Positions 5,969 to 23,215 of a stretch of DNA of 64,000 nt are shown piece after piece (within the stretch, counting starts at the first letter, position 1; the number at the start of each line of letters is the position of its first letter). The stretch covers positions 186,001 to 250,000 of the forward strand of contig NZ_JAJLQW010000006.1 of the NCBI RefSeq assembly GCF_025548535.1, given 5' to 3'. A model generated the notes under the pieces. The model saw only the letters and a program-made list of their open reading frames with translations. It had not been told where the DNA came from and ran no database searches. A program made the position numbers and the translations under genes. The stretch is from Undibacterium sp. Jales W-56 (GTDB taxonomy: Bacteria; Pseudomonadota; Gammaproteobacteria; Burkholderiales; Burkholderiaceae_D).

Positions 5969-8900
5969 TTAGACCTTCCCCCCCACACCTTTGTACTTCT
6001 CAACGAAAACAGCGATTTTCTGGAAAACGCTTTGCTTTTTGGTCAGGTATTGGGGATTAAGCGGGCTCATCTTGGGCAGGATGGCATTGAGCTCAGTGCC
6101 ATTGTCACTGGCAAACTCCCGCTTTAGTGAGTTAGTGATATAGCGTCTGGCCGCCTCGGCATTCAGATTCTCGATTCTGATCAGCTCTTGCGCCTCTTGC
6201 TGTTGTTCCGCTTGGGCAAAGGTGAAGAAGGCGTCAATCACACTTGCCTTGTCGCCAATCTGGCCCAGGTCGGTTTGGTTAATAAAATCGACCAGCAGGC
6301 CTTCTTTGGCGCGGTTGCCCAGGCTTGCGCGAATCACCCGGCGTACGTCTTCAACCAGTGAGACTTTGTCCTTGATCTTCTTACTATTCTCAAAAATCAA
6401 TTCCAGAATGTAGTCCAGGTTGATCTCTTGTGACTTCAGCAGATCTACCTCAAAGACCACGTCATCCCAATCGATAGTGGTTTTTTCCTTTTCAGTGGAG
6501 GATTTTTCCCGACGCAGCCAATCGCGAACATCGTTGTAGGTTGAACGGTAGTCCTGAATTTTTCGTTCAGCCGGTATCTTGATCGCTTGCAACGCTGCCA
6601 GTCCCTCGTCGCTTAAATAATGCTTGGCCTTGAACTCCTCAACCACGACAAGGTCATACATGTCGACGTTTTGCAAGGCCTTTAGGCTGGCAAATTCATC
6701 GTAGTTTTGCAGCACGTTTTCAACGCGCAAATACTCGCCAAACAGTTTCGCGAAGGCCTTTTTGTCGGACTCCTTTTCAATGGCAGCAGGATCAGGAAAG
6801 CGCTGTTCCAACTCCCTCACCACCTCCACAAAGCCACGCCGCGCTTCACCGGTCATCGCATCGGTAAAGCCTTCCATGTATTCCTTGTAGCTCTTTTCCA
6901 GCACCACGTTCTTGGTGTTTTTGTCGCCAAACAAGGTGATGGCGTCGATCGTCGCCTGCTCCAAATCGCGGAAGGTAACGATATTACCGAAGGTCTTGGT
7001 GGCATCATAAATACGGTTGGTGCGCGAGTAGGCTTGCATCAATCCGTGGTAGCGCAGGTTTTTATCGACAAACAAGGTATTCAGCGTGGGGGCGTCAAAG
7101 CCGGTCAGGAACATGCCCACCACAATCAGCAAGTCGACTTCCTTGGATTTGACCTGCTTTGCCAGATCGCGGTAATAGTTCTGGAAACTATTGCTATCCA
7201 CGCTGAAGTTGGTTTTGAACAGCGCGTTGTAATCAGCGATGGCCGCATCTAAAAACTCCTTGGCGCTGGTATTCATTGCTGAAACATCAAAGCTTTCATC
7301 CAAAATGTCGCCTACGGCATCCTGCTCTTCGTTCGCTGCGAACGAGAAGATGGTGGCCACTTTCAGCGGCTTGTCGCTATTCTTCTGCAACGCCTTGAAA
7401 GACTCGTAATACAGCTTGGCGGCATCGACACTGCTCACGGCAAACATGGCATTGAAGCCTTTCGCACCAGTATGCAGGCGATGCGTTTTTTGCCGGAAGC
7501 TGTTCAGGATGTACTGAGTAATTTCCCTGATACGGTCAGGGTGCAACAAGGCCTGCTTGTTTTCTGCCGCGCTGAGTTTTTTCTCGTCCTGCTCGGATTC
7601 GATGGCTTTGAAGTGCGGACGTACATCGTTGTAATCCACCTTGAACTTGAGCACCTTTTCATCACGAATCGCATCGGTGATGACATAAGAATGCAACTCG
7701 CGGCCAAAAACACTTGCCGTATCGTCTGCGCCTAGTGCGTTTTTCCCTGCAAAAATGGGCGTTCCGGTAAAACCAAACTGATAGAACTTTTTGAATTTCT
7801 TCTTCAGGTTCTTCTGTGCTTCACCGAATTGACTGCGGTGGCACTCATCAAAAATGAATACAACTTGCTTGCCGTAGATAGGCAGGTCGCCTTCGCTCTT
7901 CATCAGGTTGTTGAGCTTCTGGATGGTGGTGACGATGATCTTGTTGTCGTCTTTATCCAGGTTGCGCTTGAGCCCGGCGGTACTGTCAGAGCCATTTACG
8001 CTATCCGGTGAAAAACGCTGGTATTCCTTCATTGTCTGGTAGTCCAGATCCTTGCGGTCCACCACGAAGAAAACCTTGTCGATAAACTCAAGTTCGGTGG
8101 CCACGCGTGCAGCCTTGAAACTGGTCAGAGTCTTCCCGGAACCGGTGGTGTGCCAGATATAGCCACCACTTTCCGTATTGCTCCAGTTCTTGGCTTGATA
8201 AGCGCTATTGATTTTCCACAAGATGCGCTCGGTGGCAGCAATCTGGTAGGGGCGCATCACCAGCAGCGTGTCACTTACATCAAACACTGAATAATGCAGC
8301 AACACGTTGAGCAGAGTGTTCTTCTGGAAGAAGGTGGCGGTAAAGTCTTTCAGGTCCTTGATCAAACTGTTATCCGACTTCGCCCAATTCATGGTGAAGT
8401 CAAAGCTGTTCTTGTTGCGCTGCGTGGTATTGGCAAAATAGCGGCTATCTGTGCCGTTGGAAATCACAAACAGCTGCACATACTTGAACAAGGACCGCTC
8501 ACTGTTAAAGCTCTCTTTGCTGTAGCGATGCACTTGGTTGAAGGCTTCCCGAATCGCGACACCGCGTTTCTTCAGCTCCACCTGCACCAACGGCAGGCCG
8601 TTGACCAGAATCGTCACATCGTAGCGGTTAGCGTGGCTTCCGCTTTGCTCAAACTGCTTGATGACTTGCACCTTGTTGCGAGCAACGTTTTTTTTATCCA
8701 ACAAGTAGACATTCTGAATGCGGCCGTCGTCAAACACGAAGTCATGGATATAGTCATCATGAATCTTGCGGGTTTTATCGACGATGCTATCGCTGGGCTT
8801 ATCTAAAAACATTTCAACAAAACGCAACCACTCACCTTCGGCAAATAGCACGTTGTTCAGGGTCTGTAATTGCAAACGCACATTAACCAGTAAGGCTTGT

Positions 8901-9073
8901 GGTGTGTTCAGCGTAGGCTGGAATTCATAGCCCTGATTCTGCAAATCCTGAATGAACTCTCGCTCCAGCGCATCTTCGCTCTGATAGCTGTCATTGACCT
9001 GCCATTCCTTGGTGTACTTATCGAGAACAATGAAGCTGTTCGATTCGGCGATGGGTTTCGTGTAATCAACCAT
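5969..9073 (-). CDS. hsdR: Type I restriction enzyme R subunit (type IC, EcoR124I-like)
   Basis: Encodes 1034 aa, close to EcoR124I HsdR (about 1038). The N-terminal PD-(D/E)xK nuclease domain shows Asp152 ([12 protein letters not shown]) and Glu166-x-Lys168 (QVELKK), within one residue of the EcoR124I catalytic positions. The SF2 helicase-like motor has Walker A HTTGSGKT (308-315), DECHRSQFG (Walker B/DEAH-like) and TGTPIF (motif III). HsdR translocates DNA and cuts unmethylated foreign DNA when bound to the HsdM2S methylase. It is the last gene of the operon and overlaps the anticodon nuclease gene by 8 bp, implying translational coupling. Confidence 0.95.
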
Positions 9074-10235
9074 GTTGTTCTTCCTGTTGCCAAAAGCCGT
9101 AATTGTTCACCAAGTGATTCAGCAACGATGCAACGGTATTTTTTTCTGGGCCGCTGGGTTCGGCAGCGACCTCATTCGACAATGTTGAATGACTGGTAAA
9201 TTGAATAATGCGGTTCAAATATGCCTGCTTATCATCAGGCAAGAGTTCAGACCACTTGGGATAGCCCAGAAAGCTGGCCGTCTTCTCGTAGAGATTACGA
9301 AGTAGTGTGAAGTGATACTTTTCGATCTTGTTTTCCGCAATCGCCTGCTCAATGGTTCGCTTTAAATGCAGGTGATAGGAAAAGCTTTTGTTGGAATCAC
9401 CGTGTTTTTCGGTGAGGGCAAAGCTGCCATCTTCAAAACGCTCCATAAGGTAGCAGGTTTTGCCGTTCAGCTCATTGAAGAGAACGTTATAGAACAGGGG
9501 GCTGTGCGTCGTAACGATAAAATTCAGAGTAGATTGACTAAATTTGATCAAGCTCGCCAAATTGACTGCCAACTCAATCAAATGGTTTTCATCTAGCGAA
9601 CTGACCGGATCGTCAATAAACACATATTCAAGCTGATCAAACTGGTTGGTTTCTCGCTCGCCGGGATCGGCGACATTGAGGATCGTAACCACCTGATCCA
9701 TTACCGTGTAAAAAATGCTCCAGATGAAATTGCTTTCTTCGCTCTTGGAGATTTTCAAATTTCCAGAATGTTCGTTGTCACCGCGCTCTAGCGAGAAAGT
9801 CACCTCCGAGAAGGCTTCGACCGTGATCTCTTTATCGCCCTTGCCCTTGACTTTATATTCTTCGTTGAATCGTGGCGTCAGCTTCTCGCTGGCGTAACGC
9901 TGGAAGGTGGTGATGATATTTCGATCTTGTCCCTGATCTTTCAGAATCCAGTCGGTAAACGAATTGGGCTGAATCTTCAGCTTGTATTCGGCATCTAACT
10001 CCAAATCGTTATCCCAGTAAAACAAGTCTTCGGTAAAAGCGTTGTAATACAGGATTTTATTGCGCGACAACTCGGGTTGATCGGCTTCTTCATCGCCATC
10101 GGCTTTGGGTGCAATCAGCAGCTTGAATTCCCGCGACAGGCGCGTCTTACCAGTGCCATTGAAGGCATAGATCAGTTGCACCTTTTTGTTGGCATTTTTG
10201 AGCTGCTGGGCGATTTCAGTCAGTGTCTTGTCCAT
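9066..10235 (-). CDS. prrC: PrrC-type anticodon nuclease embedded in the RM operon
   Basis: Encodes 389 aa (E. coli PrrC is 396). The N-terminal ABC-like ATPase domain has Walker A AFNGTGKT (24-31), a degenerate signature ISKSEESNF (162-170), Walker B/D-loop [14 protein letters not shown] (205-218) and an H-loop TTHSP (His244). The C-terminal region has Arg313-x3-Glu317 (LLRNLYEKT) and His349 (FTSHS). The Glu-His spacing of 32 and the R-x3-E pair are the same as the PrrC triad Arg320/Glu324/His356, at a constant offset of seven. Asp280 falls at the position of PrrC Asp287. PrrC is kept silent by the HsdMSR complex and cuts tRNA-Lys at the wobble position when restriction is inhibited. Its place between hsdS and hsdR is the same as in the prr locus. 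Could be annotated merely as 'AAA ATPase'. Confidence 0.82.
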
Positions 10236-10236
10236 G

Positions 10237-11487
10237 TTACGTCGCTACCTCTTCCGGATTCGGAAAGCTCAACAGTAAATCGCGATAATAGGCGTACTGC
10301 TTCTCGCGCAATGCAATTTCGCGCGGCAAGCCTTCGCTGATGGAATTGGTTAGCTCGTCGAATTTGTCCAAGATGGCGGCGATGCGGACTTGTTCCTCTG
10401 GCGAAGGAACAGGGATGCGTATCTTTGCGAACCCCTTCATCAACAGGGTGTTGACCTTGGTGCGGGCCACATACTTCGCCTTCTCTGCGATGAACGAAGT
10501 TGTTTGCATGCAATAAGAAACAAACGTTGGATTCATTGAATGGCGAAAGGCGTAGCAATGGTCGTGGATCGCAACATCATCGATTCCAAGCCATGCCACT
10601 GGCTTGCCAACGTCCTCAACCGTTTCACCGACGTCGGTTATGACCACATCACCGTGCTTTGCGTAGCGCAAGGTGCCGCTCATGTCAGATCGAACATGCG
10701 TTTTCACCTCCTTCGCTGTGGTTCCGTACTGTGTATAGATATCACCGTAATGGATACAGCCGATGCCATCCTCAACGTAGTCGGCTTTAGTGAATCGCCG
10801 CCCACGATTAAATTCTCCAATCTCCCCCAACGCCTTCCACTCCACTTCCCCTTCTTCAAAACTCAACAACTGGTCGCGATAGTAGTTGTATTGTTTTTTG
10901 CGGGCGGTAAGCTCGGCGGTAAGCTCGGCGGTAAGCTCGGCGGTAAGCTCGGTAAATGCGTCCAAAATTCGGACGATTTCGGTTTGGATCTCAAGCGATT
11001 TTTCTGGATTTTCTGGGCACGGGATGGGGATGCTGTAATCCAATATTTTTGTTCTATCTCCACGAGGCATTTTTGCCCCTTTGGCATGCTGCATGTTGTA
11101 CGAGAAGAACTCATCCGATGACAACAGATAGTAGAGAAAATCTGAGTCAACTGTTTTTTTGAACTTACTTAGTATGCGCACGGCAAGCACATCACCACTA
11201 CAGCCACCTGAGTTGGTCGCATGCCACACTTTCTTGAGGTATGGGCGAATATTGCCAAGAAGGATGTCTCCTTGCTCATATGCCGTCAAACGGTCAGTGT
11301 TCGGCAAATAGTTGGCGTCAACACGTCCACCTTTGGCGGCAACAAGATTGTCAACTCCCACGAACGAGGTAGCATCAAGTTCAGCAGCATCGATTCGAGT
11401 CGGTGAGTATTCCGCCACATCCCCCAGCCTCTTCCACTCCACCGCAACTCCATCCAGCAGCTTTTCCATAAAGTTCACACTGTTCAT
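10237..11487 (-). CDS. hsdS: Type I RM specificity subunit
   Basis: Encodes 416 aa with the HsdS plan: two target-recognition domains (about 20-170 and 215-365), each followed by a conserved helical spacer. The central spacer contains four tandem ELTA units ([18 protein letters not shown]), followed by [15 protein letters not shown]. The second spacer ends with a matching [15 protein letters not shown]. HsdS binds a bipartite DNA site; in EcoR124I/EcoR124II the number of such four-residue repeats sets the distance between half-sites. The start codon overlaps the hsdM stop (ATGA, 11484-11487), and the stop lies one base from the anticodon nuclease start. The recognition sequence cannot be read from the protein. 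Confidence 0.93.
10904..10951 (-). repeat. 12-bp tandem repeat x4 in hsdS
   Basis: Four perfect copies of GCGGTAAGCTCG (plus strand), starting at 10904, 10916, 10928 and 10940, encode four ELTA units of the HsdS central spacer. The unit is a multiple of three, so copy-number change by slippage keeps the frame and alters spacer length. EcoR124I and EcoR124II differ by exactly this type of change (two versus three TAEL units). Confidence 0.95.
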
Positions 11488-13040
11488 GCCTCCAGCTCCT
11501 CGCCTTCAATCTCCGCCATAATGGCATCAATCTCCGTGCGCAGTTTGTCGATCTTGGCGACAGTGGTTTTCAGCTCGGCATTCAGTTTAACTATATCTAC
11601 CACTTCGCGGTTGTCCTTGGCTTCGATATAACTGCTGACCGACAGGTTGTAATCGTTGGCGGCGATGGCGCCAAGGCTCACCGACTTGGCAAAGTGTTCA
11701 ACATCGGCTTTGCTATCAAACGCCTGCATGATCTCTTCAATGTGCTTGCCGGTCAGCGTGTTGTTGTTGGTTTCTTTTTTAAACAGGCCGCTGGCATCAA
11801 TGAACTGGGTTTTGGTGTCGTTTTTGTGTTTGGACAGCACAAGAATGTTCACCGCAATGGTGGTGCCGAAAAACAAATTGGGTGCGAGCGAAATCACGGT
11901 TTCGACGTAGTTGTTATCCATTAAATATTGGCGGATTTTTTGCTCGGCCCCGCTGCGGTAAAAAATGCCGGGGAAGCAGACAATGGCCGCGCGGCCTTTG
12001 CTGGAGAGGTAGCTCAGCGCATGCAGCACAAAGGCAAAATCGGCCTTGGACTTGGGCGCGAGCACACCCGCCGGAGCAAAGCGTTCGTCGTTGATCAGTG
12101 TGGGGTCGTCGCTGCCTATCCATTTCACCGAATAAGGCGGATTGGAGACAATGGCATCGAAGGGTTTGTCATCGCCAAAATGCGGATTACGGAGCGTGTC
12201 GCCCAGTTGGATGTTGAACTTGTCGTAGTTGATGTTGTGCAAGAACATGTTCATCCGCGCCAGGTTGTAGGTGGTGTGGTTGAGTTCCTGACCAAAAAAA
12301 CCTTCTTCAATGATGTGGGCGTCAAAATGCTTTTTGGCTTGCAGCAGCAGAGAGCCGGAACCACATGCTGGGTCATAAATCTTGTTGACGCTGGTTTGTT
12401 TGTGCATGGCCAACTGGGCAATCAGCTTGGAGACATGCTGCGGCGTGAAAAATTCGCCACCAGATTTACCGGCATTGGCGGCGTAGTTGGAGATGAGGAA
12501 CTCGTAGGCGTCGCCAAACAGATCGATGTGGCTGCCTTCAAAATCACCAAATTCCAGCTTGGCTACGCCTTTGAGCACGTCGGCCAAACGCGCATTTTTA
12601 TCTTTCACCGTATTTCCAAGGCGATTACTGGTGGTATCGAAGTCGGCAAACAGACCTTTGATGTCGCGCTCAGAGGGGTAGCCATTGGCGGAGCCTTCAA
12701 TGGCGGCAAAGATAGCAGCCAGTTCGGTATTTAGGTTTTCGTTGGTATTGGCGCTGGCGGCTACCGTCGCGAACAGCTGGCTGGGATAGATGAAATAACC
12801 CTTGGTCTTGACGGCATCATCTTTGATGTCGGGGGTGATCACGCTGTCGGACAGCTCGGCGTAGTGGATGCTGTCGTCACCGCCTTCGATGTAGCTGGCA
12901 AAGTTTTCGCTGATAAAGCGATAGAACAGGGTGCCGAGCACGTATTGCTTGAAGTCCCAGCCATCTACTGCACCACGAACATCGTTGGCGATTGCCCAGA
13001 TTTGGCGTTGCAGTGCGGCGCGTTGTTGGGCGCTGGTCAT
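11484..13040 (-). CDS. hsdM: Type I RM DNA adenine methyltransferase subunit
   Basis: Encodes 518 aa (EcoR124I HsdM has about 520). The N-terminal HsdM helical domain (about 10-160) is followed by an N6-adenine methyltransferase domain with the SAM-binding motif DPACGSG (223-229) and the catalytic motif NPPY (300-303). It methylates host recognition sites as an M2S complex and joins HsdR for restriction. It is the first gene of the RM operon, overlapping hsdS by 4 bp. The ATG at 13040 is preceded by AGGAACC on the minus strand. Upstream lies the tail of a disrupted regulator gene on the same strand. Confidence 0.95.
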
Positions 13041-13070
13041 AGTTTGGTTCCTGTTTCAATTCGTTGATTG

Positions 13071-13228
13071 TTATTTCTTCAAAGCGCGGAGCGGTGACTG
13101 GTACCCCGGCGCGATCTTTACGTTTTCGACGCCATACAAGGCCAGCGGCTCGCGGAGACAAAGGCGGTACTGTTCTTCTTTAATACTGTGGTCGAGCGAC
13201 GCATCTTCGCTTATTCAAGGGGAGAGGT
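13071..13228 (-). pseudogene. Detached C-terminal tail of the WYL regulator, beyond a 35-bp insertion
   Basis: GAGCGACGC occurs at 13194-13202 and again at 13229-13237 (plus strand), 35 bp apart. Removing one repeat plus the 26 bp between them joins the WYL frame (…EASL) to an open frame that continues DHSIKEEQYRLCLREP and LALYGVENVKIAPGYQ and ends at a TAA at 13071-13073. The joined product would be about 330 aa and would end 30 bp before hsdM, suggesting that the regulator was once the first gene of the RM transcript. The detached tail has no start codon of its own. Confidence 0.65.
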
Positions 13229-14098
13229 GAGCGACGCTTCTTTAGCTACGTCAGCGTCGAATACCCAACCCGCGATTTCTTGATCAATTAGCTCCTGTCG
13301 ATTCAGAAGGAATAGTTGATGTTCTTTCGGGTTCTTCGTGCCAGTCGGTGTCGTGTCTATATGCCAATGTCGTAAGAAGTACGACACCAGACAGAATCTC
13401 ATGGCAACGATTTTGGTGTTGCCTTCCATGTCATAGTCGAAGCGAATAGTTTCTGGATGTTCTGCTTTTGGATGCGGCCCAAGGATAACTGCTACTTCCT
13501 TGGTCCACTCGGGATCTTGGTCTATCGTCTTTTCTGAAGGGCCACTCTCGGCGACCGCGTGGAAACGTGCGAGGTTGAAATCCGTGAATCTTCCCTTCGC
13601 GTGGTTGAAACAACGGATGTGCCAACGCAGACCGTCATGAACCAACGCTGCTGGCGACAGGGTGCGTTCACCCGCACCGCTTTCAAGTGACGCGTAAGTT
13701 GCTGAAATTTGCTTGTGTTGGTACATCGCACGGGTGAGCGCAGCGACAAGGGTCACCGGCACTTTCCTCTTTATTGAAGCCTGCACGCTGCTCGACAGCC
13801 GCTTGGCATGCTCCGGGTTGAGCGCAATTGCGCGTTCCCCTGACAGGGAATACAGCGATTGGTCAACATCATGCGTGAAGTGCGGAGTTCCGCCGCAATA
13901 GACATAGCAGCGCTGCCGTAGGTCATATTCCAACATGGTGGGGGCCATCTCCGCATAAAGGGACAAGTCCTTTGTCGCGGCGGGCTCACTGATGCCGAAT
14001 CGGGTCACCAAGTCCTTGCGTGCAACTTGGCCAACAAAAAATGCCAAAAAATCAATGTAAAACAGACGCTCCCGCTGCGTATCGCGCTGTAATTCCAT
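13211..14098 (-). CDS. WYL-domain transcriptional regulator (BrxR/CapW-like), apparently C-terminally truncated
   Basis: Encodes 295 aa. The ATG at 14098 follows GGGGGAG at ideal spacing; an in-frame TTG at 14113 lies within that site and is rejected. The N-terminal half reads as a winged helix-turn-helix (QRERLFYIDFLAFFVGQ...LVTRFGISEPAATKDLSLY). The middle (about 120-215) resembles a WYL ligand-sensing domain, and the end resembles the WCX extension. WYL regulators of this build (BrxR, CapW) repress phage-defence operons. Here the gene sits between the RM operon and the divergent ubiquitin-like operon. The frame stops early at 13211 because of a 35-bp length difference bounded by 9-bp repeats; without it the frame continues to 13071. 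Family is confident; target genes are inferred. Confidence 0.75.
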   Translation of the reverse strand: MELQRDTQRERLFYIDFLAFFVGQVARKDLVTRFGISEPAATKDLSLYAEMAPTMLEYDLRQRCYVYCGGTPHFTHDVDQSLYSLSGERAIALNPEHAKRLSSSVQASIKRKVPVTLVAALTRAMYQHKQISATYASLESGAGERTLSPAALVHDGLRWHIRCFNHAKGRFTDFNLARFHAVAESGPSEKTIDQDPEWTKEVAVILGPHPKAEHPETIRFDYDMEGNTKIVAMRFCLVSYFLRHWHIDTTPTGTKNPKEHQLFLLNRQELIDQEIAGWVFDADVAKEASLTSPLE

Positions 14099-14214
14099 AA
14101 ACAACTCCCCCAAGTTAGCTCGCGATTATACATTAGTTGAGTCTTACACAAATAAAATACGACGTGATAAAAATTATTGCCACATAATGAATATCCTGAT
14201 ACAGTTCACTCATC

Positions 14215-14242
14215 GGCCAGTTCTGGCCTCCATCTGTAGATG
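14215..14242. promoter_or_regulatory. Two adjacent palindromes in the leader of the ubiquitin-like operon
   Basis: GGCCAG-TT-CTGGCC (14215-14228) is a perfect 14-bp palindrome. CATCT-GT-AGATG (14231-14242) follows directly and ends 10 bp before the first gene's ATG at 14253. They lie in the 154-bp divergent region between the WYL regulator and the ubiquitin-like operon. They could be a repressor operator or a leader hairpin; which one is inference. Confidence 0.45.
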
Positions 14243-14252
14243 AAAGACGACA

Positions 14253-14537
14253 ATGAATCAACCAGCTCCTCCCAATGAACACACTGCGGCACGCGCGGAT
14301 CACGGCCAGCCCTTTGAGATTGTTATCAACGCGGAACCCTTCGAAATTAGGCAGAAAGAGCTGACGTTTCGTGAGTTGTGCTTACTCGCGTTTCCAGACG
14401 GCCAGTTCGGTGAGAACGTCGCCTGGACTGTGACCTACTCCGATCCGCATGGCCCTGAAGGCTCCATGGTGGACGGCGACGCTATCAAAGTGAAGAAAGG
14501 AATGGTGTTCAATGTTGGCCGATCTGATAAGTCGTAA
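14253..14537 (+). CDS. Ubiquitin-like (multiubiquitin-domain) protein
   Basis: Encodes 94 aa. About 20 disordered residues precede one beta-grasp-like unit: FEIVINAEPFEIRQKELTF, then ELCLLAFPDG, then VAWTVTYSD, a GSMVDGDAIKVKKG turn and a final strand VFNVGRSDKS. This is the pattern of the bacterial multiubiquitin family, present here as a single unit. In known bacterial ubiquitin-like operons such proteins are activated by a linked E1-like enzyme and attached to targets. The C-terminus ends in SDKS with no Gly-Gly, so the conjugation chemistry, or whether conjugation occurs at all, is unclear. It overlaps the E1-like gene by 26 bp. Confidence 0.75.
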   Translation: MNQPAPPNEHTAARADHGQPFEIVINAEPFEIRQKELTFRELCLLAFPDGQFGENVAWTVTYSDPHGPEGSMVDGDAIKVKKGMVFNVGRSDKS

Positions 14538-15708
14538 TTCCGACCTCCTGCGATTGCAGGATGACGGATTTTCCGTGGAAATTGTGCACAAGACAGGGCT
14601 GCATCTGTTGGTGCACGATGTTCCTTACCTCAATGCTCAACGAACAGTTTTGCGTGGCACCTTGGTCTGTCCGATTTTCCTCAAGGAGGACGGTCTGACA
14701 AATGCTCCGGCAAATCATCAGGCATGGTTCATCGGTGAGCATCCCTGCACGGTGGACGGATTGCCGATTTCAGGCATTGTGCATTCGAGTGGCCGTAACG
14801 ATATGGGTGACGGTATTGTTACTGACCACGGCTTTTCGACGAAGCCACCGATAACGGGTATCTACCCAGACTATCACGCGAAAATGTCGCATTACGTCAA
14901 TGTTATTTCGGCGCCAGCACAGCATGTCGATCCGCAAGCTACAGCGAAGCTGCATAAGCCGATCTTGACAACGGACGACTCCGTATTCCTTTTTGCGGAT
15001 ACGGCGTCAACCCGTGCAGGTATCGGCGCGCTCGCTGGCAAACTTTCTCATTTGCGAATCGCTATTGTTGGCCTCGGAGGCACGGGGTCGTTCATCTTGG
15101 ATCAGGTTGTCAAAACGCACGTACGCGAAATCCATCTGTTTGATGGCGATGCCTATTACTCGCACAACGCATACCGGGCACCTGGCGCCACTTCGATTGC
15201 AGAGCTGCAGTCGCCTGAGTCTAAATCACTACGCTATTCGCGCATTTACAGCAGCATGCGTCGTGGGGTTGTGCCTCATGCCGAATACATCACGGAAGAA
15301 AATGTCGAGCAATTGGCAGAATTCGACTTCGTCTTCATCTGCGTTGACAAGGGGGCGGTCCGAGAACTCATCGCGAATGTCCTGATTCCGCGTGGCGTGG
15401 CATTTATTGATGTCGGCATGCACATCCAGATGACCAAAGACGCCTCGACATTGGTTGGTCAAGTCAGGACTACTCTGTGCTCGCCGAAGAAGCATGATCA
15501 CTTCGCGCGCCGCGTGCCAACAGACGATTCCATGGTTGATAACGACTACGGCATGAACATTCAGGTGACTGAACTGAATGCCCTAAATGCCATCATGGCC
15601 GTCATTCGCTGGAAGAAATACTTCGGAATTTATGATGACCGGATGCAGGAACACGAATCGGTGTACGCCATTAACACGCATATGATTACGAAGGATGAGA
15701 AAGCATGA
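14512..15708 (+). CDS. ThiF/E1-like adenylyltransferase with N-terminal DUF6791-like domain
   Basis: Encodes 398 aa. Residues 1-150 form a separate domain typical of DUF6791 (QAWFIGEHPC at 70-79, DGIVTDHGFS at 100-109, then YPDYHAKMSHYVNVISAPA). Its conserved Cys79 suggests, but does not prove, an E2-like role. Residues 180-375 are a Rossmann E1 domain: GLGGTGS (187-193), DGD (211-213), Asn219/Arg222 in the place of the usual N-x-x-R, and CVDKGAVR (277-284). Cys323 is a candidate catalytic cysteine. E1-like enzymes adenylate the C-terminus of the ubiquitin-like partner, here probably the upstream 94-aa protein. The ATG at 14512 lies inside that gene; the stop overlaps the next gene (ATGA). 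Confidence 0.8.
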   Translation: MLADLISRNSDLLRLQDDGFSVEIVHKTGLHLLVHDVPYLNAQRTVLRGTLVCPIFLKEDGLTNAPANHQAWFIGEHPCTVDGLPISGIVHSSGRNDMGDGIVTDHGFSTKPPITGIYPDYHAKMSHYVNVISAPAQHVDPQATAKLHKPILTTDDSVFLFADTASTRAGIGALAGKLSHLRIAIVGLGGTGSFILDQVVKTHVREIHLFDGDAYYSHNAYRAPGATSIAELQSPESKSLRYSRIYSSMRRGVVPHAEYITEENVEQLAEFDFVFICVDKGAVRELIANVLIPRGVAFIDVGMHIQMTKDASTLVGQVRTTLCSPKKHDHFARRVPTDDSMVDNDYGMNIQVTELNALNAIMAVIRWKKYFGIYDDRMQEHESVYAINTHMITKDEKA

Positions 15709-16139
15709 AGGCCAGTGAACTGAGGCCTGAATATGTGAATCTGATGCCGAAGGTAATCGAGGAAGGAGTCCTGTACATCTCGAAGAAATACGGCACGGCG
15801 GTTCACAAATGTTGCTGCGGCTGTGGTCAAAAGGTGGTCACGCCGCTGAAGCCCACAGAGTGGTCCCTATCCGTTTCGACTGGAGGCGTCTCGCTACGCC
15901 CTTCAATTGGCAACTGGAGTTTTCCGTGTAGGTCGCACTATTGGATTCGAGATAATCGAGTGGTATGGGCGGGAGACATGAGTGCAGCCGAGATAGAGCA
16001 TGGCCGTCGACTGGATCGAGCTGCAAAACAAGAATACTTCGCACGGGCTGGCGAGAAACAGGTGACGCCAATAAATTCTCCGCCGGTGCGGAAACCAGGG
16101 TTTTTGGAGCGCCTTACACAGTGGTTCACGTCCAGTTAG
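15705..16139 (+). CDS. DUF6527-like Cys/His-rich protein of the ubiquitin-like operon
   Basis: Encodes 144 aa and starts in a 4-bp ATGA overlap with the E1-like gene. Conserved-looking segments are RPEYVNLMP (7-15), His34 with Cys36/37/38/40 (AVHKCCCGCG), PSIGNWSFPCRSHYW (66-80, Cys75 and His78) and RVVWAG. The Cys/His set suggests zinc binding or a thiol active site. The family is recalled as a regular companion of multiubiquitin and ThiF/DUF6791 genes. Its activity is not known to me; in the absence of a JAB-type isopeptidase gene it could fill a processing or deconjugating role, which is speculation. The C-terminal 25 residues are basic and Pro-rich. Confidence 0.7.
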   Translation: MKASELRPEYVNLMPKVIEEGVLYISKKYGTAVHKCCCGCGQKVVTPLKPTEWSLSVSTGGVSLRPSIGNWSFPCRSHYWIRDNRVVWAGDMSAAEIEHGRRLDRAAKQEYFARAGEKQVTPINSPPVRKPGFLERLTQWFTSS

Positions 16140-16551
16140 CGAGATCCGGGGCCGGGCGAATGTAACATTCGGCGGCATGTCTTCCCATGTAGACCCGGCT
16201 CACTGCCGTCAACACCGCCGGCCACCGTGCGCATGGGGACAGCACCGAGCCTGAGTGGGCTTATATGCCCAAAGAGTTCGCTGCACGAAAGTGTGGTGTC
16301 GAGATCGCCTTCCTAACCGTCGACCTATCTCAAGTAATATTCAAGTAGCATCGCAATTCCCGTCCAGCCGTAATTTAGCCGCAACGAACAAAAGGTTGGA
16401 AGCCGATGCATTTGCGATGGCGTCGACTATGAAGGTGTCTTTCGAGAAAAATACGCGATCACTGCGCACGCTGATAACAAAACCCGTTCGTTACGACGTC
16501 GCCAGCGACCTGCATAGTCTGTCGCCGAAAGGCGCGGCCACGTTGCAGGGG
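16140..16551. other. Convergent gap between the ubiquitin-like operon and the ATPase gene
   Basis: This 412-bp stretch shows no convincing gene. One plus-strand frame ending at 16348 is open for about 45 codons and includes YMPKEFAARKCGVEIAFLTV, which looks like the tail of a decayed gene; its only ATG (16265) would give 27 aa. No clear terminator hairpin with a T-run was seen. Confidence 0.4.
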
Positions 16552-19395
16552 TCAGGCAATGCCGCCCTGTGCGGCTTGCGCGGCCAGGCAATCCCTGACA
16601 TAAGCCAGTTCCTGGTTGACCTCCTCCTCACGCTTTTGAAGTACTGCCAAGCGTTGCTCCTGGGACTGCTGGACCGCGACTGGCGCTTTATCCAATTGCG
16701 CGATCTTGGCCGCGCAGGCCGCAATTTTCTGAGCTAAATCCACGAGCAAGTTATTGCAGGAGAGTTGCTTCTTTTGCGTGAAGAGCTGGCATTCAAAAAG
16801 GCGAATCGCATCGTAAATCCTGACGACTTCCTTGCTCGTTTTAGAATGAACAAAATTCAGGCTTCCTTCGTCAAAAGCATGGTGCTCCTGGTTTTGGCCA
16901 CCCCAGTTCACCAAATCTTGTTTGATGAAGTCAAAGTGCTCGCGGTCATAGGCAATATGTGGCTCCACCAACGCGAAGGTTTTTTCAAGACTTAGCTGAA
17001 GGTAAATGCTTTTTTTCAGCGCAGATTTCTTGAACTGCGCAGTAACAGAAACCGCGTTGTCCAAGCAATACTCCAAGACCATTGACTCGAACCAGATGCG
17101 GCAATACATCAAGGCCTGTCGAATGTCATACACGCCCAGGGCGCGATGGACTTTTTCTTGGAACCCACCCGCATGGTCAACCATGACGATGCCTTGGTTC
17201 GTGTAACTGAGAACGCAGCTGCTGTGCTGGTCAGACTGCGGATGTCGATCGGCGATGATGCAGAATCGCTCCCAGAATAAGCGATCATGCGTCGTGACAA
17301 TCATCTGCGTCCGACGCAAGTACGGATCAGCAAAAAACAGGTCGATGATATTGGAGCGGTGGTCGCTGTCGATCGCATTGACGACATCGTCAAATACGAT
17401 CAGCGGAAATTTGTTCTTCTCTGCCATCGCCAACAGCAAGGAAAGCCCCAGTGCCCGCAAGTGTCCCTCACTCAGGACTGAGAAGGCGTCCAGTGAACTG
17501 CCATCAGCATTCAAAATCGTGATGCGATAGGTTTCACCCGTTTTCTCGAAACTTAGCACATCGATGCGTTCATGGTCATCGTCATGATGATTGATCGCCT
17601 TATAGTATTCGGCCGCCTTGCCTTCGATGCCGGCGATACGCGCTTTTTCCAGGGAAAACTTATACCCCAACAAATCGCGATAGAGATTTCCATACTCCAC
17701 CTGCAACTGGTCAATGAGCGCATTGAGCCGCGTATTGTCGGCATCGTTACCTTGCAGGCCGGCGCGCTGGCGCGTTAGCTCGGCGAGCTGTCTACCAATT
17801 TCTTTTAATGCGGCCAGTAGTGCCTTCTTTTCGTCGAAGAGCCCTCTGAGGACCTCGGCCGCTTGCTTGAGTTGTTCGGCTTCTTGCTCGAGGCGCTTCA
17901 CCTGGACATCCACCTGCGCTATCTCGTTTTGCTTCTTTTTGCAGACGTCGAAGTAAGCCACGACCCCTGCCTCATCATCAGCCAGCAGTTCGGTCAACGT
18001 GGTGAGAACCTGCGTCGCTGCCCCCGCCCTGTCTGTCGCGGAATGGAAATTCGTCAGGCTGGCTCGAAGGGACTCCAACGTCAGTGCACACGGTATGCCA
18101 AGGCGCGCATTGCTGTCGACCGCCGTGATGGTAGTGCCGATGGCCAAGGCCAACTGAGAAATGCGCTCCTCGACGCGCTGCTGTGATGTCTTGAGTTGGT
18201 CGAGCACGCCCAATGTTGCGAGCTCGCGCCGAGCCTTATAAAACGGATTTTCGACCACACGAGCCAATGGCGTCGAACAGGCCGGACAGTGTTCGCTTGC
18301 CCCCGCGTTCTCGATCGCCTGCAGGGCCTCATAGACGGCGCGATAATTGACGGCCATCACGTTCTTCAAGAAGGCTGCGTCGATCTTGGATTTTCGCGCA
18401 AGCAAGCGACACGCAATCCGCGCGCCACCGAGGATGTGCTTCATCGTCGCAGCAAACGGCACTTCCGCGACCTTCAGTCTTTCTGCCTTGCGGAGTTTGA
18501 ATTCCGCCAGGCTTGGCAAACGCGCGTGCCTGGCGCGCACGGCAAATTGTTGGTCAACCCGCAGGCCCAGGCGAGTACACACGTCCTCGTTGAGGACAGA
18601 AATCTTATGGTGGTGGCGGCGCCGATGTTCGTGGAGCTCCGCTCTGGTGGCCTCTAGGGTGCGCAGTGCCTCGCCTTGGCTTGGCCGCCGATGCGATGTG
18701 AGGTTGAAGTTCTCGGGCTTCACGAACCGTGAAATCACCTCCTGAAATTCTTCCAACCCAAACAAGGTAGCGATCACATCGCTCTCGGCGCTACCGGTGT
18801 CCTTTGAACCGAGCAAAGAAAATTCCTGCAGACGGTTTCGATCGATGAAGCAACTTGACCAGGTCAGGCTGGCAGGTACACGGTTGCGGTCCGTGCCCAT
18901 CAAGTTCAGCTCGACCTTGCCTGCGCCCCTCACGATGTATTGCTTGACCTTGGTCTTACGCCGGCCGGCCTCCTTGATGTGGCCGGTGGTGGCGTACTCC
19001 AACGCTTCGCATAAAGACGACTTGCCACCGCCGTTGGGTGCGTAAAAGATGTTCTTGATCTTACTAAACCGCAGCAGCGTCCCTTTGTCTTCGGGGCCAA
19101 ATGCGCCGGAGCCACGGAAATTTTTCACCTGCAGCGTGGCCAAAGGCCTGAGTCCAGAAGGGGTGACCCAGTCAAGCTCTTGCCGGGCATCCAGAATTTT
19201 TTTGAAGCGCTCGGCGATGCGCTGATAGTTGGTCGTTAACAGCTCGTTGTCGGCGGAGGTCAGGTGAAGTTTGATGTGATCAGAATACCGGCCTTTGTCC
19301 TGCCTCCCCTTGTACATACACCAAAGTAGTGCGAGATAGGCGTCCGACTTTCCGACCAAGTTCTCCTTGGCAAAGCTCAACAGGTACTGACTCAT
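16552..19395 (-). CDS. SMC/Rad50-like ATPase with Cys-x-x-Cys hook, probable defence protein
   Basis: Encodes 947 aa. The ATG at 19395 follows AGGGAG; an in-frame GTG two codons upstream lies within that site. Residues 1-85 are a small helical N-terminal domain, followed by TLQVKNFRGSGAFG and Walker A APNGGGKSSL (about 119-128). Long coiled-coil arms flank a CPAC motif (about 370-373), which looks like a Rad50-type zinc hook. The second ATPase half has signature LSEGH (about 641), Walker B LIVFDD (about 665-670) and an H-loop TTHD. The last 230 residues are a separate domain with no recognised family (NWGGQNQEHHAFDEG, then FVHSKTSKEV). A role in sensing or processing foreign DNA is inferred from the fold and island context. 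No partner nuclease gene is adjacent on the same strand. Confidence 0.7.
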   Translation of the reverse strand: MSQYLLSFAKENLVGKSDAYLALLWCMYKGRQDKGRYSDHIKLHLTSADNELLTTNYQRIAERFKKILDARQELDWVTPSGLRPLATLQVKNFRGSGAFGPEDKGTLLRFSKIKNIFYAPNGGGKSSLCEALEYATTGHIKEAGRRKTKVKQYIVRGAGKVELNLMGTDRNRVPASLTWSSCFIDRNRLQEFSLLGSKDTGSAESDVIATLFGLEEFQEVISRFVKPENFNLTSHRRPSQGEALRTLEATRAELHEHRRRHHHKISVLNEDVCTRLGLRVDQQFAVRARHARLPSLAEFKLRKAERLKVAEVPFAATMKHILGGARIACRLLARKSKIDAAFLKNVMAVNYRAVYEALQAIENAGASEHCPACSTPLARVVENPFYKARRELATLGVLDQLKTSQQRVEERISQLALAIGTTITAVDSNARLGIPCALTLESLRASLTNFHSATDRAGAATQVLTTLTELLADDEAGVVAYFDVCKKKQNEIAQVDVQVKRLEQEAEQLKQAAEVLRGLFDEKKALLAALKEIGRQLAELTRQRAGLQGNDADNTRLNALIDQLQVEYGNLYRDLLGYKFSLEKARIAGIEGKAAEYYKAINHHDDDHERIDVLSFEKTGETYRITILNADGSSLDAFSVLSEGHLRALGLSLLLAMAEKNKFPLIVFDDVVNAIDSDHRSNIIDLFFADPYLRRTQMIVTTHDRLFWERFCIIADRHPQSDQHSSCVLSYTNQGIVMVDHAGGFQEKVHRALGVYDIRQALMYCRIWFESMVLEYCLDNAVSVTAQFKKSALKKSIYLQLSLEKTFALVEPHIAYDREHFDFIKQDLVNWGGQNQEHHAFDEGSLNFVHSKTSKEVVRIYDAIRLFECQLFTQKKQLSCNNLLVDLAQKIAACAAKIAQLDKAPVAVQQSQEQRLAVLQKREEEVNQELAYVRDCLAAQAAQGGIA

Positions 19396-19614
19396 CTGCA
19401 CTCCCTATCGTGGCCGGGGCGAAATGCACGCGGGCCGAGGTGATTGCATTATAGCAATGTCGCTTGCTTATCTCCCCAAAGATTTCTTCAGGCGCCAATG
19501 CGCGCGTTTCGAGAGAAGTCCCGCTGCCTGCGAGCAAGGTTGGCTGCTGGCTAAATGGCGTTGTGGGACAACGATCACCCGCAGCACGCATTCAGGTCCA
19601 GAACCCGGTTATCC

Positions 19615-20808
19615 TTACAACTGACCTGATGTTGCGATAGCATCAATGTAATCCGACCAATCCTGCATCATGCGTGTGCGCTCTTTCAACCACTTCGCAC
19701 GATCGTAGGCTTGGTCCACCTTGTCTTTCTTGACATGCGCGAGTTGCAGATCGACGATCTTCTCGTCATAGCCGAGTTGCTGGGTTATTGCAGACATGGC
19801 CAGGGATCGGAATCCATGGCCAGTCATCCTCCCCTTGTAACCCATGCGCCCGAGCGCGCGGAGGATCGTGTTGTTATCCATGTGCTGCCGTCCTTTCGAG
19901 CGGTGCGGGAAGATGAATGGCCGGCCGCCGGTAATCGGTGCCATCAAGCGGAACAACGCCACTACCTGGCGCGACAAGGGCACGATGTGATCGCGTCTCA
20001 TCTTCATGCGTGCCGCCGGAATGATCCATACCGCCTTGTCCAGGTCGATTTCGCTCCATGGTGCGCCAACAATTTCCTCCGTTCGGACAAATGTGTGCAT
20101 CGCCAGTCGCGTCGCCACGCGAGTCTTGATTTCCATTTCAGGCTCGGCCACCGCCAAGTCGGCCAGAAACTGGGGAAACTCTTCGACTTCAATAGCCGCA
20201 AAGTGTCCGGCCGTATGTCCCTTGAGTGCTTCCTTGACAGGCGCCGCGGGGTTGTCCATGCGCAGACCAGAGGCGACTGCATAGTTGAATATTCTGACAA
20301 CCAGTCGCTGAACACGCTTGGTCATGTCCAACGATCCGCGCGCCTCGATCCGGCGCAACGATGCCAGCACCATCGGAGGATTGATCGATGCAACGGGCAG
20401 CCCGCCCAGATCCGGAAAAATGTTCATCGCAACCCGGTGCAATGCATCGTCGCCGGTCTTGGATGCGCTCGGATATTTCGTCGCTCGCCACTCGATCGCA
20501 ATCTGCTCAAACGTCCTGCCATTGGCCGATGCCGCCAGCAACTTACCAATGCGTCGTTCGACAGTCGGATCCTTGCCCGCTTCAAGCTGCGCTTTGGCTT
20601 TGCGCCACACTTCTCTGGCATCCTGCAGGCTCACGCCAGGATAGGCCCCGATGGAAAAGGTCTTGGGTTTCCCGTCAAAGCGATAGGCGCCGCGCCACAG
20701 TTTGGACCCCTTTGGGGAAATATGGAGCTGCAAGCCAACGCCGTCGGAAAGCTTGATGAGCTTTTCCCCCGGCCTGGCCTGGCGGCATTTGATGTCGGTC
20801 AGCGGCAT
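19615..20808 (-). CDS. int: P4-type tyrosine recombinase (island integrase)
   Basis: Encodes 397 aa. The N-terminal arm-binding DUF4102 domain (MPLTDIKCRQARPGEKLIKL; GLQLHISPKGSKLWRGAYR) is followed by a core-binding domain (about 100-195) and a catalytic domain with Arg242 (TFVRTEE), a lysine near 269, His331-x-x-Arg334 (GHGFRS), His358 (LAH) and Tyr368 (QAYDRA). All five expected catalytic positions are visible. The gene starts 194 bp from the 3' end of tRNA-Ser and reads away from it, the usual layout for P4-like integrases using a tRNA gene as attB. It probably integrated the defence island to its left. Confidence 0.93.
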   Translation of the reverse strand: MPLTDIKCRQARPGEKLIKLSDGVGLQLHISPKGSKLWRGAYRFDGKPKTFSIGAYPGVSLQDAREVWRKAKAQLEAGKDPTVERRIGKLLAASANGRTFEQIAIEWRATKYPSASKTGDDALHRVAMNIFPDLGGLPVASINPPMVLASLRRIEARGSLDMTKRVQRLVVRIFNYAVASGLRMDNPAAPVKEALKGHTAGHFAAIEVEEFPQFLADLAVAEPEMEIKTRVATRLAMHTFVRTEEIVGAPWSEIDLDKAVWIIPAARMKMRRDHIVPLSRQVVALFRLMAPITGGRPFIFPHRSKGRQHMDNNTILRALGRMGYKGRMTGHGFRSLAMSAITQQLGYDEKIVDLQLAHVKKDKVDQAYDRAKWLKERTRMMQDWSDYIDAIATSGQL

Positions 20809-21001
20809 GTTGGTATGTGTTCGCGCCGCCCCGGTCTGTTGGTATACGGCGAAGTAGGCACAAATTCAGTACCAACATTTATACCAACAATTTCGTGGGA
20901 TGGCAACGGACCACAAGCAACAGTGTGGGCCCGAATATCAGAGGGAGGATCTGTGATTCAGACCAAAATGGGACGTTATGAAATGGCAAGAAACGATCCA
21001 T

Positions 21002-21091
21002 TGGCGGAAGCGGTGAGATTCGAACTCACGAAGGGCTCACACCCTCGCCAGTTTTCAAGACTGGTGCCTTCAACCACTCGGCCACACTTCC
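21002..21091 (-). tRNA. tRNA-Ser(UGA), island attachment site
   Basis: The minus strand folds as a 90-nt class II tRNA: acceptor GGAAGTG pairs with CGCTTCC (one G-T pair). The D-arm is GGCCGAGTGGTTGAAGGC, the anticodon loop CTTGAAA (anticodon TGA) and the long variable arm GCGAGGGTGTGAGCCCTTCGT. The T-loop is TTCGAAT, and G plus an encoded CCA form the 3' end at 21002. The gene is intact, and its 3' end faces the integrase, so integration restored it. A second copy of its 3' end was not found to the left, so the other junction is probably outside the window. Confidence 0.96.
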
Positions 21092-21199
21092 GTACTTACT
21101 ATCAATTTTCAGGCTAGCGCGCTTACGAACGGCACTAACCTTCCAAGCCCGTTATTATAGCAATACTCTCCAGGTTTGCGGCATTTATTTTAAATCCCC

Positions 21200-23215
21200 T
21201 CAAACAGAAAAATGAAAATCCCTGGCAAACATCTCGGTGATCTGATCCGAACTCACGGGCCGGGAAAATAAATAACCCTGTATTTCATCACAGCCTGCGT
21301 CTTTTAAAAACGCAAACTGCTCCCAATTTTCCACCCCTTCCGCGATGACCTTATGACGTAATTTCTTCGCCATGCTGATAATCGCTCCGGCGATCGAGCA
21401 ATCGTCGGTATCGCTGGGTACGCCCTGGATAAACGAGCGGTCGATTTTGAGTGTTTTGATAGGGAAGCGTTTCAGGTAGGACAAACTGGAGTAACCGGTA
21501 CCGAAATCATCCAGAGACAAGGTCACGCCCAGAGCGGCGATTTCATCCATGATCGTGATGACGCTTTCTGCACTGTGCATCAGCATGCTCTCGGTAATTT
21601 CTAACTCTATCCATGCCGGAGATATTTGATATTGCGCCAGCGCCTCGTAAACTCTGCTTGGCAGGGTCGAAGTGAATTCTTTGGCGGATACATTAACGGC
21701 GATCCTGAACGGCGCAATTCCCATCTCTTGCCATTGCCTGGCCTGCTCGCACGCCGTCTCAAGAACCCAGGCATCGATCTGCAGGATCAACCCCGTCTCT
21801 TCCGCAACAGGAATAAATTCTGCCGGCGAAATCATGCCCTTTTTAGGATGATTCCAGCGCAATAATGCTTCCACACCGATCATCTGACCCGTGACTATAT
21901 TCACTTTAGGCTGATATAGCAGGGAGAACTCGGCATGCTGCAAGGCGCGCCGCAAACCCGACTCCAGATACAAACGACCAGCGATGGTGCGGTTCATCTC
22001 ATTATCGTAAAACGCATAACTGCCGCTGGCACGTTCGACATTGCGCTTGGCCTTGAACATCGCGATATCCGATTTTTGCAAAAGCTGATCCGCCTCCATG
22101 CCATCTTGCGGATAGATGCTGATACCGATACTCGCGCCTATGCGCAATTCATGTCCCTCAACCCAGAACGCTTGATCCAGGGTCGTCAATAATTTCTGCG
22201 CAACCAGTCCGGCATGAATATCCTGGGGAATATCGAGCAAGCCAATGGCGAACTCATCACTGCCCAAACGCGCAATCACATCGTTTTCACGCAACGCCAG
22301 ACGAAAACGCTCAGCCACCTGCTTAAGCAAGAGATCGCCAATCGCGTGACCCAGCGTATCGTTAATCGGTTTAAAGCGATTCAAGTCAATAAATAACAGC
22401 GATCCTATCGAATTATTCCGCTGCGATTGCAGCAGCGCTTTATCGACTAATTTTTTAAATAAAGTACGGTTAGGCAGGTCCGTCAGCAGATCGTAATAAG
22501 CGAGATGATTGATCTGTTCTTCGGCACGCTTGCGTTCGGTAATATCGCTGAGGTAACCGATCATACCTATCGGCTGCGCATGGGAGTCGCATAAAGGCGA
22601 CAGACTCAGGCTCGCCCAAAATACTTCACCCGATTTTTTGCGGCGGCGCACTTCCATCTCACGTCCGCCGTTTTCCAAAAACGAGTCAAATAGGCGCAAA
22701 CCGTCGGCCTCTTCCTCATCGTAAAGAAACAGAATATTTCGGCCAATCGCCTCGTTTGCGCTATAACCAAAAAGATTTTCCGCTCCACGATTCCAGCTGA
22801 TGATGAAGCCCGCCAAATCCATAGTAATTACGGATTCATGGATCTGATCGAGAATTTGCGATTGCTGCAACTGCGCCTCGGCTGATGCTTTGAAGCGCTG
22901 ATCCAACTGCGTCCTGGCTGCTAATAGTTTGCCCGTAAGTTGCGCCAGCATCCTCAGTTTCGCCAGATCCGTTTCCGAATACATGCCTTGCTTACCGGAC
23001 AGGACATAAAAAGCTTCAGCCGATACATGGCACCGCTCATGCTCCGCGCTGACCGCAGCCGTAAGCTGCGGGACAAACCTGACATCAGGAGAATTGACTA
23101 CCGTCTGGGCGATACGAGTCAACTCCTGGTCGAGGCGACTGCCCTGCATGCACAAGACCGCCTCGCCGAGCGATGCACCCAGATTGAATTCTGTCAGCGC
23201 CTTGGTCTGGTTCAT
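21200..23215 (-). CDS. PAS-GGDEF-EAL cyclic-di-GMP phosphodiesterase/cyclase
   Basis: Encodes 671 aa: an N-terminal region (1-110) of unclear fold, a PAS domain (about 115-240, ending in the DITERKRAEEQI linker), a GGDEF domain with ARLGSDEF, and an EAL domain with GVEALLRW and DDFGTGYSS. The signature is GSDEF rather than GGDEF, so cyclase activity may be lost or altered. The residues RxxD five positions before it keep the inhibitory I-site pattern. The EAL motifs appear intact, so c-di-GMP hydrolysis is the likely activity. No membrane segment is seen. It starts directly after the HDOD gene stop (23216), so the two are co-transcribed. Confidence 0.88.
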   Translation of the reverse strand: MNQTKALTEFNLGASLGEAVLCMQGSRLDQELTRIAQTVVNSPDVRFVPQLTAAVSAEHERCHVSAEAFYVLSGKQGMYSETDLAKLRMLAQLTGKLLAARTQLDQRFKASAEAQLQQSQILDQIHESVITMDLAGFIISWNRGAENLFGYSANEAIGRNILFLYDEEEADGLRLFDSFLENGGREMEVRRRKKSGEVFWASLSLSPLCDSHAQPIGMIGYLSDITERKRAEEQINHLAYYDLLTDLPNRTLFKKLVDKALLQSQRNNSIGSLLFIDLNRFKPINDTLGHAIGDLLLKQVAERFRLALRENDVIARLGSDEFAIGLLDIPQDIHAGLVAQKLLTTLDQAFWVEGHELRIGASIGISIYPQDGMEADQLLQKSDIAMFKAKRNVERASGSYAFYDNEMNRTIAGRLYLESGLRRALQHAEFSLLYQPKVNIVTGQMIGVEALLRWNHPKKGMISPAEFIPVAEETGLILQIDAWVLETACEQARQWQEMGIAPFRIAVNVSAKEFTSTLPSRVYEALAQYQISPAWIELEITESMLMHSAESVITIMDEIAALGVTLSLDDFGTGYSSLSYLKRFPIKTLKIDRSFIQGVPSDTDDCSIAGAIISMAKKLRHKVIAEGVENWEQFAFLKDAGCDEIQGYLFSRPVSSDQITEMFARDFHFSV

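Follow-up and report, generated by a model that had tools for sequence, protein, structure and literature searches.

The analysed window, a stretch of 64,000 nucleotides from Undibacterium sp. Jales W-56 (contig NZ_JAJLQW010000006.1, positions 186,001 to 250,000), carries a compact cassette of three genes related to ubiquitin conjugation, accompanied by a divergently transcribed regulatory gene. The cassette is composed of (i) a gene (14253-14537, + strand) encoding a ubiquitin-like protein (Ubl) of 94 amino acids (aa) with a single beta-grasp unit (Multi_ubiq; PF14452, 3.8e-14); (ii) a gene (14512-15708, +) encoding a 398-aa enzyme resembling ubiquitin-activating (E1) enzymes, in which a DUF6791 domain (residues 10-164; PF20590, 8e-47) precedes a ThiF/E1 adenylation domain (residues ~166-398; PF00899, 9e-13); (iii) a gene (15705-16139, +) encoding a 144-aa DUF6527 protein rich in Cys and His residues (H34, C36, C38, C40, C75 and H78; PF20137, 3.1e-25); and (iv) on the opposite strand (13211-14098, -) a gene for a WYL transcriptional regulator of the BrxR/CapW family (PF13280, 5.1e-10), for which a TTG at 14113 is an alternative start. 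The Ubl and E1 genes overlap by 26 bp (14512-14537, +), a segment coding for both the tail of the Ubl (...SDKS-stop) and the start of the E1 (MLADLISR...), and the E1 and DUF6527 genes overlap by 4 bp; the Ubl and WYL genes flank a divergent promoter region (14099-14252).

An original prediction had read these genes as a ubiquitin-like operon. The open reading frames (ORFs), their strands and coordinates and both overlaps agree with it, and Pfam upheld its domain calls, placing the first protein inside Multi_ubiq, the second inside DUF6791 and the ThiF family and the third inside DUF6527, with the scores of all four proteins, the regulator included, exceeding the curated gathering cut-offs. 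In NCBIfam the E1 corresponds to a PRK06153-type 'hypothetical protein' (467 bits vs. a cut-off of 352), and PADLOC (2023) gave no match for the Ubl or the DUF6527 protein. Profiles of JAB peptidases and of ubiquitin-conjugating (E2) enzymes found no match in window positions 8001-24000, in keeping with the predicted lack of a gene for either. The membership of this operon family is firm and the three-gene set probably serves to activate a ubiquitin-like protein and attach it; the chemistry proposed for it below is one that we infer. Relatives of the operon that do encode a JAB (JAB-type operons) are now named Bub operons (EMBO J 2026).

The feature that distinguishes the cassette is the end of its Ubl (...FNVGRSDKS-stop). 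The C-terminal Ser is encoded by TCG (14532-14534, +), the last two bases of which open codon 8 of the E1 frame. This end was compared at 93 loci with an adjacent Ubl, namely the window, one congener, 9 plasmids, 80 genome contigs and 2 viral contigs, which include some near-duplicates (e.g., L070/L071 and L073/L074); L001 and L122, representing the window's own locus again, were left aside, as were L012, the second E1 of L054, L094 and L096, which are without an adjacent Ubl of the JAB-less type. The C-terminal residue is Ser at 93 of 93 loci, preceded by Lys or Arg at -2 (86/93), Asp or Asn at -3 (88/93), Thr at -4 (90/93) and Phe at -9 (89/93). The E1 start codon is found at the exact 26-bp overlap at 91 of the 93 loci (87 ATG, 4 GTG), some of the 93 having extra in-frame start codons further upstream. 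The two loci that differ, L009 and L010, make up a diverged group in which an ATG gives an overlap of 41 bp. A separate genome collection, in which some species have possibly been counted already, showed the same overlap start and Ser end at 15 of 15 loci, where position -3 may also be Ile or Val.

The two reading frames were further compared codon by codon in the 82 unique overlaps among the 91. Each of the 82 has a Ser codon at the end of the Ubl (TCG 39, TCT 21, TCA 16, TCC 6), and the overlapping residue 8 of the E1 varies (Arg 39, Leu 21, His 16, Pro 6). Because Ser is kept by means of four different codons while the E1 residue varies, we conclude that selection acts on the Ser and stop codon of the Ubl. 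Across the 93 loci the tail has no conserved Gly position, and Gly occurs among the last 11 residues at only 5 of them. The Ubls of JAB-type operons have Gly at or near their presumed mature end in 10 of 10 cases (e.g., TTEG and VNNG), in some cases with an E2 fusion after it; the end of the L102 Ubl (FGGGV) is less clear than that of the other nine, and in the L103 Ubl the Gly is residue 229, which is where the PDB construct BubA(155-229) ends. A Ser-ended tail is also present in PDB 9cd2 (ZDHYS365 multi-ubiquitin domain protein; ...FYVTQTDKS), a longer protein (222 aa vs. 94 aa for the window Ubl) whose last part aligns, up to its final residue, with residues 21-94 of the window Ubl (E 2e-6).

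The E1-like enzyme was analysed in an alignment of 62 sequences (A4, with 61 of the 81 related loci L013-L093, the rest being omitted to thin the set). The residues of the adenylation site (the G187-G192 loop, D211, D213, R222, K238 and D279) are invariant or nearly so. No conserved Cys was found among these sequences in the crossover region, where canonical E1s of the MoeB/UBA type have their catalytic Cys; the sole frequent Cys of the E1 domain, C277 (57/62), precedes D279. Tyr346 (codon 15547-15549, +), invariant in 62 of 62 sequences, is next to where MoeB-type enzymes have their catalytic Cys: the MoeB-like protein of the same genome has a Cys, which we take to be the catalytic one, one column after Tyr346 in two of three alignments, in a comparison that disregards L099. 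Tyr346 aligns with Tyr370 (a number counted from the alignment) of both L103 and BubCD, the JAB-bearing E1 of Citrobacter Bub, and this is the residue altered in PDB 9eav, 'BubCD(D104A/Y370F)-BubB-BubA(155-229)'. The E1 of L103, encoded by an Enterobacter plasmid, matches Citrobacter BubCD with 844 bits over 454 residues.

A predicted structure of the window E1 (predicted local distance difference test, pLDDT, 92.8) has BubCD as its best structural match (Z 24.9, root mean square deviation 2.4 A, 223 residues aligned), with other matches to ThiF (Z 23.8) and MccB chains (Z 21.5-21.9). The E1 profile places Citrobacter BubCD first (1.8e-11), with tRNA t6A dehydratases close to it (3.7e-11). Since the scores of ThiF and eukaryotic E1s come near that of BubCD, the fold of the E1 does not discriminate between these enzymes.

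The structure searches with the 398-aa model were taken up by matches to the E1 domain (residues 151-398), and the DUF6791 profile, run against PDB sequences, returned nothing better than an unrelated protein (E 0.36). The suggestion in the original prediction that this N-terminal domain supplies the E2 step did not gain ground: an hhalign comparison of DUF6791 with BubB, the E2-like protein of Bub operons, gave a probability of 1.6% (32 vs. 10 sequences), which with profiles this small is weak evidence, and a likeness between an FSxKP and a WSRH motif, noticed by eye, was not retained as a sign of a BubB-like E2. A relationship between DUF6791 and JAB was likewise unsupported (hhalign probability 0.3%, weak evidence for the same reason). 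The predicted secondary structure of the domain, a helix, six strands and a helix, is compatible with a UBC-like fold, and a divergent E2 fold within DUF6791 is possible on this prediction. Two of its residues, H69 and S109, are invariant in the 62 sequences.

For the DUF6527 protein, 64 sequences were aligned (A5, with 63 of the same 81 loci, again thinned). H34, C36, C38, C40, P66, S67, C75, S77, H78 and Y79 are invariant in all of them, and the protein of the diverged locus L010 is without H34. C36, C40, C75 and H78 may form a metal site. Of nine JAB-type DUF6527 proteins, eight do not preserve His34, a residue missing from the ninth; at position 38, five have Cys, two Gly, one Ser and one Ala, and the L105 protein is also without C40 and C75. 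Because they are variable or missing in JAB-type proteins, H34 and the invariant C38 appear to mark the JAB-less subtype and may be candidates for a catalytic role. The predicted structure (pLDDT 92.1) had no Foldseek match in the PDB at E <= 0.001 and no VIA row at Z >= 5, which is not proof of a new fold, and the DUF6527 profile did not match BubB. Nine of the 10 JAB-type operons inspected have an annotated DUF6527 gene, so the family belongs to both subtypes, which weakens the original idea that it stands in for JAB. At L009 a DUF6527 gene that follows the E1 (5168-5593) is absent from the gene table of the record.

The original prediction knew of no described mechanism for this gene set. 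The set itself is not undescribed: a comparative study (Iyer, Burroughs and Aravind, 2006; PMC1779556) already contains such an E1 subset, with a Ubl of one to three units and a Zn-finger-like protein. In the JAB-less subset of its type 6e, the E1 carries an unrelated N-terminal domain replacing JAB, with which the DUF6791-ThiF arrangement of the window agrees, and an adjacent gene encodes one to three beta-grasp units of ~70-75 aa, as does the one-unit Multi_ubiq gene. The small protein of type 6e has the pattern C-x3-C-x35-38-H-x2-C, to which C36-x3-C40-x34-C75-x2-H78 of the window is close without following it literally. The JAB-less operons were described there as sporadic and mobile, like the window cassette, and within the accessible text we found no difference in architecture. 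Sections 14 and 16 of that study hold no mention of a Ser-ended tail, a fixed overlap or a missing E1 Cys, and no account of the mechanism of the JAB-less subtype was found in the accessible literature.

Compared with Bub (BubA, BubB and BubCD; PDB 9ea4-9eav), the window operon has a Multi_ubiq Ubl and an E1 whose kinship to BubCD is seen in sequence (E 1.8e-11), fold (Z 24.9 over 223 residues) and the shared Tyr. The other marks of Bub, i.e., JAB on the E1, a gene for E2-like BubB and a Gly-ended Ubl, are all absent; in their stead, the window has DUF6791 at the place of JAB, no BubB gene and a Ser end. The Enterobacter operon L103, near-identical to Citrobacter Bub, encodes, in order, a Ubl-E2 fusion, a JAB-E1 and DUF6527. 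Bil (BilABCD) is described as comprising an E1 with a catalytic Cys, an E2 and a JAB, whereas the window E1 is without a Cys conserved at that place and the operon without an E2 or JAB gene. Both Bil and the Cap2/Cap3 proteins of cyclic-oligonucleotide-based antiphage signalling systems (CBASS) resemble the window operon in being bacterial activation enzymes of the Ubl type tied to defence. Judged by its sequence, the cassette belongs to the Bub/Iyer type 6e operons as a subtype without JAB and E2.

Scanning of genome contigs with the E1 profile yielded at least 561 relatives, the best 80 of which by E1 similarity (a few of them near-duplicates) were fetched. The Ubl, E1 and DUF6527 genes were all present at 80 of 80 loci, so the three-gene set is not a product of chance, and the joint action of the genes, as originally proposed, is likely. 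The DUF6527 gene is situated no more than 40 bases from the E1 stop codon in 78 of the 80; at L078 and L088 it is found about 2 kb beyond the E1, with other DNA between. The relatives span many phyla, and three records among the matches listed are named as archaea, perhaps through binning errors. The profiles for JAB and E2, derived from ten operons of the JAB type and applied to the fetched DNA of each locus, whose flanks differ in length, matched at 2 (L054 and, weakly, L045 with 1e-4) and 1 (L054) of the 80 DUF6791-type loci, respectively. L054, labelled as an archaeon, has a separate JAB-type operon nearby: its JAB-type and JAB-less Bub-like operons are placed close together on opposite strands (3798-5594, - and 7708-9492, +). 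Both subtypes also occur on Acinetobacter plasmid NZ_CP010358 (L104 and L164), ~26 kb apart.

In an even draw of 398 genomes from the phylum, DUF6527 was detected in 19 (E <= 0.001; 18 over the cut-off) and a full-length DUF6791-E1 in 8, the Undibacterium genome included, all 8 with an adjacent DUF6527 gene; in 4 others of the 19 a JAB-type E1 is located next to DUF6527. DUF6791 is patchy in its distribution, occurring in 2 of 43 genomes of the genus and in 14 of 392 genomes drawn from the family (13 over the cut-off), from 8 of 44 genera, with the own genome counted at both levels. Among plasmids, 120 of 72,556 records matched the E1; in 109 the match covers at least 80% of the E1, and remote ThiF relatives are among the others. 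There was no E1 match in 50,697 phage records, and viral contigs contributed four loci, one of which is merely a remote ThiF.

The predicted assignment of the WYL protein to BrxR/CapW-type regulators was borne out by nearly full-length PDB matches, the best being BrxR 7qfz (3.3e-42, residues 10-276), followed by BrxR 7tb5 (4.3e-33), CapW of S. maltophilia 7tb6 (1.4e-27) and 9c5g (1.4e-21); as with these repressors, the gene is divergent from its operon. According to the Bub report, CapW/BrxR represses transcription until it binds single-stranded DNA, and CapW, or CapH plus CapP, accompanies 219 of 544 Bub operons (EMBO J 2026). A sigma-70-like site (14177-14205, +) is within chance expectation (2 found vs. 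a shuffle mean of 2.8), and the divergent promoter region contains no operator-like repeat that we could find, with one 6-bp palindrome at 14215. At L002, from a congener, only window positions 13703-14251 (the 5' part of the WYL gene and the promoter) are alike (90.4% over 551 bp), and the Ubl and E1 of its DUF6791 operon have diverged. Regulator and promoter may be exchangeable between operons.

Two other genera of the same family carry DNA that is 90.4% (L111) and 90.5% (L112) identical to the window over 2969 and 2968 bp, the identity starting at window position 13209 and ending at 16173 and 16171, respectively. Beyond the shared stretch, blastn found no match in the adjoining 330-332 and 168 bases of those loci. 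The WYL gene and the three operon genes (13209-16173) thus seem to move as one unit. On one side, the cassette directly adjoins ORFs resembling, as read by eye, type I restriction-modification genes (5969-9073 and 10237-13040, both -) with a PrrC-like gene (9066-10235, -; PADLOC PrrC, E 1.5e-148) among them, the whole group extending over 5969-13040. On the other, it adjoins a gene for a 949-aa SMC/AAA protein (16552-19401, -) with likeness to Lamassu LmuB (4.1e-20), beyond which a tyrosine integrase gene (19615-20808) is located beside a tRNA-Ser gene (21002-21091). These surroundings look like a tRNA-integrated defence island. A search for an attachment (att) repeat of the 3' end of the tRNA-Ser returned, within the window, only the tRNA itself; genome-wide it added a single copy, located on a different contig and carrying 1 mismatch. 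Elsewhere on the contig of the cassette (C17:73098-74272), a ThiF-like gene stands beside a Prok-JAB gene, and a JAB acting in trans from there is possible.

As a working model, whose chances we consider evenly balanced, we propose that the locus is a damage-inducible Ubl-conjugation cassette in which the Ubl is made in its mature form and the E1 adenylates the Ser-ended tail without forming a thioester. The WYL protein would repress the promoter and release it upon DNA damage, by analogy with what is reported for CapW relatives, and the Ubl and E1 would then be produced by translational coupling. The E1 would adenylate the C-terminal carboxylate of the Ubl, that of an already exposed Ser, and for this reason no maturation by JAB would be needed. 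No E1 thioester would be formed when the activated tail passes to a nucleophile, perhaps via Tyr346, and its transfer to an amine or other group of the target would be helped by DUF6791 and by the DUF6527 protein, which probably binds metal. A precedent for a ThiF-like enzyme that acts on a non-Gly C-terminus without a thioester is MccB, whose substrate ends in Asn (PMC12250964). The Ubl would then probably become conjugated to proteins in a response to stress or in defence; for a possible antiphage function, the context is the PrrC-like gene, integrase and tRNA nearby.

Several observations weigh against this model. The lead of BubCD over other ThiF-fold enzymes is marginal (1.8e-11 vs. 3.7e-11; Z 24.9 vs. 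23.8). According to the Bub report, protection against phage by Bub operons is yet to be demonstrated (EMBO J 2026). Upstream genes of the ImmA-like and XRE-like kinds outnumber WYL genes (Peptidase_M78 29, HTH_3 29, WYL 5) among 130 ORFs, these being the window WYL gene and 129 of 161 upstream ORFs picked by script, up to two per locus. MAFFT places the Ser of the tail four columns before the Gly of JAB-type Ubls; a residue-for-residue match of the two was therefore dropped, and we claim only that both are situated at or near the end. Finally, Gly is present at position -12 of the Ubl at 67 of the 93 loci, and processing there is possible.

This last observation also speaks for an unlikely yet serious alternative, canonical maturation, in which DUF6791 or DUF6527 would clip the tail and expose a Gly (e.g., that at -12), as JAB does elsewhere. 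The idea that the N-terminal domain of the E1 is an analogue of JAB was raised as a speculation in an earlier study (Iyer, Burroughs and Aravind, 2006; PMC1779556), and invariant residues that could be catalytic are available in both DUF6527 (H34, C36, C38, C40, C75, S77 and H78) and DUF6791 (H69 and S109). The Gly at -12 is, however, absent from the remaining 26 loci, with no conserved tail Gly to take its place, the stretch to be discarded would hold the most strongly conserved positions of the tail (Ser -1, Thr -4 and Phe -9), and DUF6527 accompanies JAB in nine of the ten JAB-type operons. We consider it improbable that the enzyme is instead a modifier of the MccB or ThiF kind, joining the Ubl tail to a nucleotide, sulfur or small nucleophile rather than to proteins, with the Ubl serving as a carrier or signal. 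The lack of a conserved Cys at the MoeB position, the structural likeness to MccB, the non-Gly C-terminus and the lack of an E2 gene would all suit such an enzyme. Yet the closest match in both sequence and structure is BubCD, which was solved with BubB (ThiF and eukaryotic E1s being nearly equal), and no biosynthetic family stood out in the upstream ORFs, for which 25 of 38 families were shown in a scan confined to the upstream side. Very improbable in our view is a mainly non-covalent role, with the Ubl assembling or binding partners and the E1 reduced to a degenerate binding platform: oligomers of bacterial Ubls are reported (Gong 2025), but the adenylation residues of the E1 are invariant or nearly so in the 62 sequences and the window Ubl is a single unit.

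To our knowledge, the known E1-driven ubiquitin-like pathways act on a C-terminal Gly. The conjugation model proposed above would, in its fullest form, amount to a Ubl pathway with a chemistry of its own, a proposal that we advance tentatively and hold to be somewhat doubtful: a modifier made in its final form, ending in an invariant Ser without a conserved Gly and with its terminus fixed by the overlapping E1 start; an E1 with a Tyr beside the usual place of the Cys; and, with neither E2 nor JAB, DUF6791 and the Cys/His-containing DUF6527 as the parts for transfer. Operons of this kind have been known since 2006, and what stands out here is a Ubl that ends in Ser instead of the usual Gly. If the proposal is true, it would bear on the question, raised in that year, of what substitutes for JAB, as for maturation perhaps nothing is required, and ubiquitin-type chemistry would extend to a widespread bacterial branch in which the Ubl ends in Ser and the E1 lacks the usual Cys.

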